A stretch of DNA of 47,351 nucleotides from Bacteroidales bacterium (GTDB lineage Bacteria; Bacteroidota; Bacteroidia; Bacteroidales; UBA932), in NCBI GenBank assembly GCA_017558775.1, contig JAFYTP010000065.1, positions 1-47,351 of the forward strand. Reading direction: 5' to 3'. Both the position numbers and the translations under genes were made by a program. Below, in pieces: positions 5,276 to 17,928 of the stretch. Within the stretch, counting starts at the first letter, position 1, and every line of letters starts with the position of its first letter. The notes under the pieces were generated by a model, which saw only the letters and a list, made by a program, of their open reading frames with translations, made no database searches and was not told the DNA's origin.

Positions 5276-6768
5276 CGCTTGCCCACTTTCAGCCGTTGTC
5301 CTTCGCGGATCTTGTCGCTCTTGAGGCCGTTCCAGGACTTGATGTTCTTGACGGTGGTGTGGTGCCTCGCGGCGATCTTGCCGAGGTTGTCGCCGCGGCG
5401 GACCTTGTAATAGACCCAGCTGCCGCTGCCGGAACTGGCCTTGCGGGTGGACGTGGCCGGCTGAGGACGACCGACTTCCACGGAGCCGGAGAACATCTCC
5501 GCCGCCTTGTGCTTGTAGATGGTGTCCTGGCTGTCGATGAAAGCGTTGCTGTAGTTGAAGGGGAGGCGGAGGACCTGGTCACCCTGCGCACCCGGGACGA
5601 TGTCCTTGTAGTACTGCGGGTTGAGGTCGCGCAGGTCGTCGATCGGGATGCCGATCACCTCGCTCACCTGACGGAAATGGAGGTTCTTGTTCACCATGAA
5701 GGTGTCCACATGCTCCGGCATCTGCACGGGAGCGGGCTCCAGACCGTATTCCTTCGCGTAATTGATGGCGTACATCGCGCCCACCATCGCCGGCACATAA
5801 CCGCGGGTTTCCCTGGGAAGGTACGGGTAGATGGACCAGAAATCCCGCCGTCCGGCGCGCTTGATGGCCTTGTTGACATTGCCGGAACCGCAGTTGTAGG
5901 AGGAGATGGCCAGGCTCCAGTCGCCGAAGATGCGGTAGGCGTCGCGGAGGTAGCGCGCGGCGGCATCGACAGAAGCCACCGGGTCCATACGGTCGTCGAT
6001 GTAGGAGTCGATGCGGAGGCCGTAGTTACGGGCGGTGGAATGCATGAACTGCCACATGCCCGTCGCACCGACGCGGGAGACCGCCACCGGATTCAGGGCG
6101 GACTCGATGATAGCCATGTATTTGAGTTCCAGCGGAAGGCCGTACTTGCGGAAGGCCTCCTCGAAGATGGGCATGTAATACTGGGCGAGGCCGAGCATCT
6201 GGCTCATCCGGGTGGGCATCTTCTCGGAGTAGAGGACCATATAGTTCTTGACGGTCTCGTTGTACGGGAGACGGATGAAGGAATTCATCCGCTCCAGCCG
6301 CTCGATGAGCACCTGGTCGGGAACGCCGGAGGTGAAATGGACACTGTCCATGTTATAGTTCGCCTGCGGGTTCTCGCGGATCTGCCGGTGCAGGTACCAG
6401 ACGCTCAGGAGGCTGTCGGTGACGCTGTCCGTGTAGTCGAAGTCGCCGTCCTGCTGGAAATCGCCCTGCTGGTAGCCGTCCTGCTGGCCGCTCTCCTGGA
6501 AGTCACCCGGGCTGTCGAAGTAATCGGCGGCGCTTTCCTTCCGGTCCTCGCGGTACAGCAGTTCCATCTGCCGCTCGAGGCTGTCCCGTTCATTCTTGTC
6601 CTGCCGGAGCCAGTCCAGCTCCTGCTGGATGGATTCCAGACGCTGCCGTAGCTGGGAGTTTTCCTTTTCCAGCTGCCGGCGTGTTTTCCTGTCCGTTTGC
6701 GGGCCCGCTACGGCCTGGAGCGGGGAGGCGAGGAGGAGGGCCGTCAATATAATGGTAAACTTTTTCAT
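5272..6768 (-). CDS. mltD: LysM-containing lytic transglycosylase (MltD-like)
   Basis: A 498-residue periplasmic murein hydrolase that cleaves the MurNAc-GlcNAc bond with 1,6-anhydro product formation. Order: signal peptide (1-22, LQAVAG), a predicted coiled coil of about 50 residues (QLEKENSQLRQ onwards), a low-complexity Asp/Gln-rich stretch (about 75-110), an SLT domain (about 170-320) with the catalytic Glu in IIESALNP and the GATGMWQFM and YNCGSGNV motifs, and one C-terminal LysM domain (about 448-495, YKVRRGDNLGKIA). It is the last gene of parA-parB-DUF5683-mltD, six bases after the DUF5683 gene. The coiled coil and acidic linker are additions relative to E. coli MltD. Confidence 0.92.
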   Translation of the reverse strand: MKKFTIILTALLLASPLQAVAGPQTDRKTRRQLEKENSQLRQRLESIQQELDWLRQDKNERDSLERQMELLYREDRKESAADYFDSPGDFQESGQQDGYQQGDFQQDGDFDYTDSVTDSLLSVWYLHRQIRENPQANYNMDSVHFTSGVPDQVLIERLERMNSFIRLPYNETVKNYMVLYSEKMPTRMSQMLGLAQYYMPIFEEAFRKYGLPLELKYMAIIESALNPVAVSRVGATGMWQFMHSTARNYGLRIDSYIDDRMDPVASVDAAARYLRDAYRIFGDWSLAISSYNCGSGNVNKAIKRAGRRDFWSIYPYLPRETRGYVPAMVGAMYAINYAKEYGLEPAPVQMPEHVDTFMVNKNLHFRQVSEVIGIPIDDLRDLNPQYYKDIVPGAQGDQVLRLPFNYSNAFIDSQDTIYKHKAAEMFSGSVEVGRPQPATSTRKASSGSGSWVYYKVRRGDNLGKIAARHHTTVKNIKSWNGLKSDKIREGQRLKVGKR

Positions 6769-15875: not shown

Positions 15876-15930
15876 GCGGGGATTCCGCCAGAAAGTTCCG
15901 GGGGGTATTCCGGAAAAGCAATATTCTCCG

Positions 15931-15938
15931 TAAATTTG
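15931..15938 (+). promoter_or_regulatory. -7 box TAAATTTG for the Na/Pi symporter fusion gene
   Basis: Exact TAnnTTTG match 22 bases before the ATG at 15961. No Pho-box-like direct repeat was recognised next to it. Confidence 0.6.
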
Positions 15939-15960: not shown

Positions 15961-17928
15961 ATGCTGATAGTCCTGAAACTTCTCGGCTCGATCGCCCTCC
16001 TGATATACGGTATGAAGGTGATGAGCGAGGCTCTGCAGAAGATGGCGGGTCCGCAACTCCGCCACTTGCTGGGGGCGATGACCACCAACCGTTTTTCCGG
16101 CGTCGCCACCGGCGCCCTGGTCACCGTGGCCGTCCAGTCATCTGCCGCTACCACCGTTATGACGGTGTCCTTTGTGAACGCGGCGCTGTTGTCATTGGCA
16201 CAGGCTATCTCCGTCATTATGGGCGCGAACATCGGCACTACGATGAGCGCTTGGATCATGTCGGCGGGGTTCTCGTTCAATATCACGAATGTGGTGTGGC
16301 CGGCGTTCCTCATTGGCATTGTGTTGATCCAGCTGCGGAAGCACCGGTATGTGGGTGATTTCCTGTTCGGACTTTCGTTCCTGCTCTTTGCGCTGGGAAT
16401 GCTGAAGCAGGCGGGTATCGACATGGACCTGGCGAGCAAGCCGGCGGTCGTGGACTTTTTTGCCAGCTTCAAGACGAATTACGGTACGATCCTGCTGTTC
16501 TTGCTTATCGGCACGATCCTGACCGCTATCGTGCAGAGTTCCGCGGCCTTGATGGCCATTACGATGGTGCTTTGCTCTACCGGCGCCATCTCCATTTTCC
16601 AGGGTATTGCGCTGGTTATGGGCGAGAATATTGGTACTACTGTTACTGCGAATTTGGCCGCTCTCAACGCCAATACACAGGCACGGCGCACGGCTATGGC
16701 GCACTTGTTCTTCAATGTGTTCGGTGTGATCTGGGTGCTGATTACGTTCTTCCCGTTCGTCCGCTTCGTATGCGGCCTGGTGGGGATGGATCCTACTGCG
16801 GAGAGCCAGAATCCGACGCAACTGTCATTTGCCCTGGCCACCTTCCATACCTGCTTTAACCTCATCAACACCGCCGTCCTTATCTGGTTTATCCCTCAGA
16901 TTGAGAAGCTTGTGTGCGCCATCATCAAGCCGCGCAAGACCGAGGAGGACGACGAGTTCCGCCTCAAGTATATCCGTGGCGGTATCATGAAGACGCCGGA
17001 ACTTTCCGTGTTCCAGGCCCAGAAGGAGATTGTCATCTTTGGCGAGCGCATGCAGCGCATGTTCGGGATGGTGAGGGACCTCTATCATGCCGAGGACGAC
17101 CAGACGTTCGAGAAGATCTTCGAACGCATCGTCAAGTACGAGGACATCAGCGACCGCATGGAGAACGAGATCGGACGGTACCTGGGTCAGGTGGGCGACG
17201 CCCATCTGTCCGATGATACCAAGGAGAAGATCCGCGCCATGCTGCGTGAGATCGGTGAACTGGAGTCGGTGGGCGACAGCTTCTACAACCTGGCGCGCAT
17301 CCTCCGTCGTCGCCGCGAAAAGAAGATCGAATTCACGCCCGAACAGATCGAAGCCGGCCAGCAGATGGTCGGTCTCGTGGAAGAGGCTATGACGCGGATG
17401 AACACCGCCCTGGCCAACCGCCGGGAGGATGTCGATATCTCCGCTTCCATCGACATTGAACGGAAGATTAACGATCTCCGCAACACCCTGCGCCAGCGGA
17501 ATGTCACCGACGTGGACAATCACGTGTACACGTACGAGGCAGGCACCGTGTTCATGGACATGGTCACCGAATGCGAGAAGACCGGCGATTACGTGATGAA
17601 CGTGCTGGAAGCCCGTCTGGGCGTGGACCACAACGGCCTCCATTTCAAAGGAATCCTGATCGACACGGCCGCCAAGGTGGTTACCGTGGACCAGCAGCAA
17701 GTGTATTTCCCGCGGACGGAATATGCCCTGCTGAAGCTCTTCATGGAGCACCCGGGACGCGTTTTCTCCCGCGAAGCCCTGCTGGAATTCCCTTGGACGC
17801 CCGATGTCGATGTCACCGACCGCTCCCTGGACTATAACATCGCCCGCATCCGGAGAAAGATCGGCCCGTACGCCGAGTTCCTGCTCACAGGCCCGGGGTA
17901 TGGGCTGTTGGTCGAGGATAAGAAATAG
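15961..17928 (+). CDS. Na/Pi symporter - PhoU - winged-helix DNA-binding fusion protein
   Basis: One uninterrupted frame of 655 residues with three parts. Residues 1-about 315 are a Na+/phosphate symporter (NptA/PNaS family) with the two inverted QSSA repeats at Q59 (VQSSAATT) and Q192 (VQSSAALMA), each followed by a GANIGTT or GENIGTT loop. Residues about 345-545 are a PhoU-like helical domain (KYEDISDRMENEIG, ELESVGDSFYNLA, ECEKTGDYVMNV). Residues about 561-651 match an OmpR/PhoB winged helix: FPRTEYALLKLF, HPGRVFSREALL, VTDRSLDYNIARIRRKIG and a final TGPGYGLL wing. Symporter plus PhoU is normal for the family; the C-terminal DNA-binding domain is not. No receiver domain precedes it. Inferred role: phosphate import with direct transcriptional output from the membrane. 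The AlkD gene ends four bases downstream on the other strand. Confidence 0.88.
   Translation: MLIVLKLLGSIALLIYGMKVMSEALQKMAGPQLRHLLGAMTTNRFSGVATGALVTVAVQSSAATTVMTVSFVNAALLSLAQAISVIMGANIGTTMSAWIMSAGFSFNITNVVWPAFLIGIVLIQLRKHRYVGDFLFGLSFLLFALGMLKQAGIDMDLASKPAVVDFFASFKTNYGTILLFLLIGTILTAIVQSSAALMAITMVLCSTGAISIFQGIALVMGENIGTTVTANLAALNANTQARRTAMAHLFFNVFGVIWVLITFFPFVRFVCGLVGMDPTAESQNPTQLSFALATFHTCFNLINTAVLIWFIPQIEKLVCAIIKPRKTEEDDEFRLKYIRGGIMKTPELSVFQAQKEIVIFGERMQRMFGMVRDLYHAEDDQTFEKIFERIVKYEDISDRMENEIGRYLGQVGDAHLSDDTKEKIRAMLREIGELESVGDSFYNLARILRRRREKKIEFTPEQIEAGQQMVGLVEEAMTRMNTALANRREDVDISASIDIERKINDLRNTLRQRNVTDVDNHVYTYEAGTVFMDMVTECEKTGDYVMNVLEARLGVDHNGLHFKGILIDTAAKVVTVDQQQVYFPRTEYALLKLFMEHPGRVFSREALLEFPWTPDVDVTDRSLDYNIARIRRKIGPYAEFLLTGPGYGLLVEDKK

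Follow-up and report, generated by a model that had tools for sequence, protein, structure and literature searches.

A Na/Pi symporter-PhoU protein joined to a PhoB-type output domain in uncultured gut bacteria, a candidate regulator of its own gene

The window, the whole 47,351-nucleotide stretch of DNA that was analysed, contains a gene in which a Na/Pi symporter, a PhoU-like part and a PhoB-type winged helix are encoded in one unbroken frame from ATG to stop codon (Table 1). An earlier note, made from the letters alone, had described this 655-residue frame, and the description was confirmed by the frame itself, by Pfam and by a structural model. The symporter family PF02690 matched in two stretches (E 6.4e-55; 185.4 bits, cut-off 29.1), and the NCBIfam model TIGR00704 matched residues 1-325 with 218.1 bits (cut-off 210.1). 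PhoU (PF01895) was also found in two stretches, the best at residues 361-447 (E 2.8e-9; 37.7 bits, cut-off 23.5), and PF00486 covered residues 579-644 (E 1.8e-15; 57.2 bits, cut-off 26.2). As for the QSSA repeats that had been placed at residues 59 and 192, QSS at 59-61 and QSSA at 192-195 were invariant across 35 aligned sequences, but the A at position 62 varied. The top NCBIfam model for the C-terminal domain was the Bacteroidetes PhoB NF053854, aligned through its output half (positions 130-223 of 225; 83.2 bits); the receiver half is absent from the window protein, which misses the whole-protein cut-off of 270. PhoB models aligned by their second half only, and no receiver-domain family appeared among the Pfam matches of the protein up to E 1. 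The closest sequences with solved structures were those of E. coli PhoB (1qqi, 3t72 and 1gxp; E about 3.5e-12). The winged helix lies at the C-terminus, behind symporter and PhoU, and by its architecture the protein fits a membrane-bound one-component regulator in the wide sense. Upstream of the gene, we take TAAATTTG to be a -7 element of the Bacteroidetes type TAnnTTTG.

Table 1. Features of the fused gene and its promoter region in the window.
Feature	Position	Strand	Residues	Basis or remark
Fused gene, Na/Pi symporter + PhoU + PhoB-type winged helix	15961..17928	+	655 aa	ATG at 15961, stop at 17928
Membrane symporter part	15961..16935	+	1-325	PF02690 twice, TIGR00704
PhoU-like helical part	16993..17616	+	about 345-552	PF01895 in two stretches; model helices 346-553
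Short linker from last PhoU helix to first output-domain strand	17617..17634	+	553-558	Model
OmpR/PhoB-type winged-helix output domain, complete	17635..17913	+	559-651	Pfam, NCBIfam, model
Recognition helix	17818..17859	+	620-633	RSLDYNIARIRRKI here, RTVDVNITRIRKKI in box-carrying relatives
Wing hairpin	17881..17913	+	641-651	TGPGYGL; relatives' arginine/lysine and GY lost
Putative -7 promoter element, TAAATTTG	15931..15938	+		30 bp before ATG
Site matching the relatives' box position relative to -7	15878..15893	+		Box absent here

An AlphaFold2 model was built from an alignment of 35 sequences (mean pLDDT 78.6, pTM 0.45); because of this pTM, the placement of the domains relative to each other in the model is unreliable. 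The output domain was predicted to be complete, with four strands (within residues 559-581), three helices (585-596, 604-608 and the recognition helix at 620-633) and a two-stranded wing (641-644 and 648-651), and block pLDDT was 61-86 over residues 551-655. Its first strand starts about five residues past the last PhoU helix. Both recognition helix and wing are thus present in the prediction, in agreement with the earlier claim of a complete winged helix.

Conservation in sister genomes had been left for checking by the earlier note. The fused gene was found in at least 24 of the 151 sampled genomes of the genus, in one of the 24 as a contig-end piece, and in two further genera. Among the genus matches listed, G201, G253, G260, G280 and G339 have two fused copies each, and in G301 and G327 a piece of a fused gene lies at a contig end (L136 and L146). 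A scan of an 84,980-species collection gave at least 80 loci. Of the 80 listed, 34 have the fused tail in full-length open frames, 45 end at about residue 555-590, and one, L072, is arranged as an operon. Six of 119 family genomes are fused genomes of the two other genera (G014, G033, G051 and G091 in g15; G052 and G067 in g16). Among the matches listed from 393 genomes of the order, one fused genome, G722, belongs to another family. L078, one of the 80 listed loci and titled Prevotellaceae, is also fused. The genome and locus sets overlap, some assemblies being shared; the genes of G033, G067 and G014 are identical to L005, L019 and L016. The window genome also has a paralogue without winged helix at C123, 41% identical. 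Fusion-carrying genomes with known titles are metagenome assemblies, which could speak for an assembly or gene-call artefact, and the earlier note had pointed to positions of about 17620-17650 as the place for such an error. However, the junction is identical in many separate assemblies, on which ground an artefact was rejected and is given next to no probability. We conclude that the fusion, carried by a group of uncultured gut bacteria, is a real, recurrent and lineage-bound arrangement derived from a Pho operon.

The unfused arrangement is preserved among relatives. In L072, a transporter-PhoU gene is directly followed by a full PhoB gene (receiver and output domain) and then by a gene for a PhoR-like kinase, and the same operon persists inside the window's own genus in G214, G256 and G261. 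The G214 transporter has 553 aa, PhoB (225 aa) follows after 18 nt, and PhoR has 308 aa; order and 18-nt gap are the same in G256. In G261 there is no gap but a 4-nt overlap of phoB with the end of the transporter gene, and a PhoR match of 49% lies behind. In the fused genes, the tail begins within the linker, immediately ahead of strand one of the PhoB output domain. The simplest history that these sequences suggest is that a transporter-PhoU gene joined the output domain of the adjacent downstream phoB, with removal of the receiver. A winged helix encoded by a separate gene in relatives, which the earlier note had held against the fusion, is therefore real in these four operons; since the fused state recurs in many genomes, the operons show the origin of the fusion and leave it standing.

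On a tree of the transporter core (100 sequences: 43 fused, 53 unfused and 4 operon), the fused label needed 13 changes, at least 10 of them forced by well-supported branches. This interleaving of fused and unfused genes indicates that the winged-helix domain is dispensable. On a tree of 65 winged-helix domains, the fused ones formed three groups separated by PhoB rows, which suggests up to three separate fusions. One origin is also compatible with the data, as the AU test rejected a single clade neither for all fused domains (p 0.218) nor for groups A and B together (p 0.268). Repeated loss of the winged-helix domain is likely. A profile search for relics of the domain behind unfused genes (frames of at least 40 aa, E 1e-3) yielded none once matches to operon genes, to other regulators and to fused genes cut off at contig ends were set aside.

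The presence of PhoR and PhoB in the fused genomes was also to be checked according to the earlier note. PF00486 was searched for in 57 genus genomes, 24 fused and 33 others. In 18 of the 24, all matches were fused genes (G000, G129, G201, G212, G215, G218, G225, G226, G240, G248, G268, G278, G280, G287, G315, G323, G337 and G340), and one further match each was present in G236, G253, G260, G263, G291 and G339. The transporter was present and a PF00486 match absent in 21 of the 33 non-fused genomes. When 31 genomes were searched with the PhoR of L072, matches of at least 40% identity were obtained only in G214, G256, G261, G289, G236 and G263. The last two are the only ones among the 24 fused genomes, with 40-45%; in the other 22, matches were weaker and mostly lay in long hybrid frames, and G218 had no match. 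In the window genome, which is 88% complete, the best of five matches had 23% identity and lay in a 1301-aa frame. Most genus genomes are incomplete drafts. The six fused genomes of other genera, with completeness of 100% (G014), 99% (G051), 98% (G067), 96% (G033), 95% (G052) and 92% (G091), had exactly one PF00486 match each. PstB (TIGR00972) was above cut-off in 0 of 36 genomes, compared to 13 of 14 controls. Of the strongest candidates below the cut-off (235-241 bits), the three tested scored higher with amino-acid ATPase models than with PstB. As a separate observation, a 921-aa frame in L246 (742-3507) combines a permease of the polar amino-acid type, a substrate-binding domain and a GlnQ/HisP-like ATPase, the domains other than the ATPase being recognised by eye.

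Many fused genes are preceded by TTAAAATTCTGTTACAA or a near form of it, a PhoB-like box that forms an 11-bp direct repeat. Repeats resembling TTACAATNNNGTTACAA occupy the equivalent position at the phoB operons of G214 and G256; the G261 operon has no box. In L072, four TTGTAAC-like half-sites occur every 11 bp upstream of 4053, before the transporter-phoB-phoR operon, and they are the other-strand version (the reverse complement of GTTACAA) in opposite orientation. Of the 42 distinct fused genes, 18 had a perfect TTAMRNNNNNKTTACAA at -78 to -83, a pattern that was defined after inspection of the promoters; among 58 unfused genes two had it, both of them phoB operons, and the rate in shuffled fused promoters was 0.1%. 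Of 21 distinct arrangements, 19 have 36 bp from box to -7 element and the remaining two 35 and 37 bp; these 21 include the two operons and the group B genes L227 (G268) and L067. When box and spacing were required together, 19 of 53 distinct fused genes had both; among 58 unfused genes the same two phoB operons did (0 of the 56 others), and among 25400 shuffles none. The other 34 distinct fused genes are without box plus spacing, and L016 has the box and lacks the strict form of the -7 element. In ten representative promoters, the spacer was 39% and the preceding 30 bp 28% identical, so the box promoters are not recent copies of one another; these ten were chosen with the box and -7 patterns, so their high identity in both elements arises by construction. 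Among genes that were added after the pattern had been defined, fused L237, with the canonical helix, has a box at 36 bp, and fused L241, with a changed helix, has none. L239, which is nearly the same as L022 from the first set, has an imperfect box, and no box was found at unfused L243, L244 and L245. In group B, several fused genes with a changed helix (L226, L063, L069, L073 and L225) have a GTTGATAA motif upstream in common, and L227 and L067, whose helix is PhoB-like, have TTAARN(5)GTTAAA at the usual spacing.

The exact sequence TTAMRNNNNNGTTACAA occurred 23 times in 29 genomes, compared to 15 times for the reversed control. Eight of these matches were at fused-gene promoters, two at phoB operons and 13 elsewhere. 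A wide regulon was rejected because these 13 are no more than the control, and the predicted regulon is, on the same ground, self-regulation. The idea that the whole Pho circuit is kept in one polypeptide is for this reason left unsupported. By eye, no phosphate gene was seen near six of the matches elsewhere (the upstream copy on G226 C55, G201 C28, G253 C2, G226 C38, G291 C2 and G129 C15). In L186 (G226), a second perfect box is located near 5621, 2.8 kb farther upstream than the fused gene's box and right after a short frame that looks metal-binding; a clearly controlled gene was not seen there.

The box was compared with the recognition helix in 42 fused genes. Helix TVDVNIT and box were both present in 17 genes and both absent in 20; L005 has only the box, and L004, L012, L022 and L095 have only the helix, L012 and L022 with imperfect boxes at the usual place. 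The Fisher value of 7e-7 for this association ignores kinship, and the tree provides 4 independent pairs, too few for significance. The dN/dS of the output domain was 0.04-0.12 in 8 box-carrying pairs and 0.09-0.48 in 6 box-less pairs. G339 has one fused copy (L093/L156) with box and PhoB-like helix and another (L155) with neither, whose helix reads RVVETYI. As the box keeps a fixed spacing and occurs mainly together with a PhoB-like recognition helix, self-regulation is probable for many of the fused proteins. For the box-carrying relatives, a single-chain circuit in the form of self-regulation is well supported by these sequence patterns.

The box could instead be controlled by a leftover or other kinase-regulator pair, with the fused domain merely competing for it. 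Such a pair might be sought in the 6 of 24 fused genomes with one further PF00486 match, or in the 2 of 24 with a PhoR match of 40-45%. However, G225, G226 and G323 have the box and no other PF00486 match in genomes that are 78-87% complete, and G014, listed as 100% complete, has one PF00486 match, and its fused gene carries the box. We consider the need for such a partner quite improbable.

The window's own copy differs from these relatives. Its helix has RSLDYNIARIRRK in place of RTVDVNITRIRKK, and its wing has TGPGYGL where most relatives have arginine/lysine and GY. Its promoter carries no box, and the exact pattern has 0 matches in the 88% complete window genome. The nearest relatives of the gene by transporter, L010, L061, L031 and L043, are all without winged helix, and the terminal branch of the window copy is 0.83 long on the winged-helix tree versus 0.14 on the transporter tree. 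Compared with L003, L013, L011, L099 and L005, the dN/dS of its output domain was 0.31, 0.28, 0.47, 0.39 and 0.15, that of its PhoU part 0.30, 0.18, 0.21, 0.11 and 0.16, and that of its membrane part 0.04-0.06, with synonymous sites near saturation in several of these comparisons. The output domain had the higher value than PhoU with four partners and a slightly lower one with the fifth. These values indicate that the domain is still constrained, mostly less than PhoU. The intact domain appears to have left PhoB specificity, so that it may now read a different site or be losing its role; the copy seems to have drifted from the self-regulating job. Three TTCCG repeats, 12-13 bp apart, are located at 15883-15912, after the upstream stop codon and before the -7 element. 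They lie at the place of the relatives' box and are possibly a new site, possibly chance.

These features raise the possibility that the output domain is a relic that stayed behind when PhoR and the receiver were lost, and that it is decaying and being lost repeatedly next to a transporter that works alone. The changed helix and wing, the missing exact box, the long terminal branch, neighbours without the domain and a dN/dS mostly above that of its own PhoU part all agree with this explanation, as do the 21 of 57 genus genomes with a transporter and no PF00486 match, and it is the most plausible one for the window's own copy. For the fusion as a whole we hold it to be a rather unlikely account, since the eight box-carrying pairs are under the strong constraint given above, the box keeps its fixed spacing in 19 of 53 fused genes, the frames are full-length in 34 of the 80 listed loci, and even the model of the window copy retains all secondary structure.

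We judge it fairly likely that the window protein is one of a family of self-contained phosphate receptors that arose by fusion of a transporter-PhoU protein with a phoB output domain. With somewhat less assurance, though still on the favourable side of even, we propose that the transporter would serve as its own transcription factor: the PhoB output domain would replace the PhoR-PhoB phosphorelay and act on the old box at its own promoter, with later retuning or loss on repeated occasions, and the window copy would be one retuned or fading form. The PhoU domain would read transport or cytoplasmic phosphate. At high phosphate it would hold the winged helix in a non-binding arrangement, and at low phosphate it would free it; paired membrane proteins could then occupy the 11-bp direct repeat immediately ahead of the promoter and switch on the gene that encodes them. 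The location of the box just upstream of the promoter, as in the two phoB operons, fits such self-activation at low phosphate. If the ancestral operon worked alike, PhoU of the transporter would act on PhoR and in this way on PhoB, and the fusion would short-circuit the relay. A simpler form of feedback, in which any fused protein that is produced binds at its own promoter, independently of phosphate, and PhoU gates transport only, would agree with the finding that the box matches above control are those at the protein's own fused-gene promoter and at phoB operons. However, PhoU domains are known signal relays, PhoB is an activator, and the box is placed as in phoB operons; we consider this phosphate-independent feedback unlikely. 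Returning to the transporter as its own phosphate-responsive transcription factor, a bearing on the PhoU step comes from S. aureus, where loss of the NptA PhoU domain raised nptA expression at intermediate phosphate, with PitR as the main regulator, and changed growth, suggesting control of import (PMC13170248).

The earlier note had proposed that sensing and DNA binding are combined in one chain. The architecture, the mostly missing PhoR and further PF00486 domains, and the lack of PstB matches above cut-off support this proposal, and the boxes support DNA binding, but the window copy is a poor example of it. The note had also known of no description of this architecture, and in searches of open PubMed Central papers we likewise found no description of a symporter-PhoU-winged-helix protein.

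The Pho field has long asked how PhoU and a phosphate transporter signal to gene expression. As the fusion is a one-chain protein without kinase or receiver, any signal must pass through that chain, and a transporter with PhoU and a PhoB output would make the signalling step directly testable. The genus offers a series of operon, fusion, fusion with altered helix, and transporter without the domain, in which one can trace, residue by residue and alongside its DNA site, how a two-component system collapsed into one membrane protein. NptA of S. aureus shares with the fusion the order of symporter and then PhoU, and its PhoU influences the phosphate two-component system; it differs in that the available part of the paper mentions no DNA-binding domain and has NptA work through a separate PhoPR (PMC13170248). 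The likeness to Bacteroides fragilis PhoB, BF1576, is that the best NCBIfam match of the fused domain is the Bacteroidetes PhoB, and BF1576 is described as a response regulator that works with PhoR BF1575 and controls a pst operon (PMC3547664). Unlike in BF1576, the receiver is gone in the fusion, PhoR is mostly not found, and PstB is above cut-off in none of the 36 genomes. ToxR and CadC are membrane one-component regulators (PMC5430869). Their winged helix sits at the N-terminus, and they have a periplasmic sensor and a single membrane helix. They resemble the fusion in having a membrane-bound winged helix of the OmpR type, with sensing and DNA binding in one chain. Unlike in ToxR and CadC, the winged helix of the fusion is C-terminal, behind a whole transporter and PhoU.
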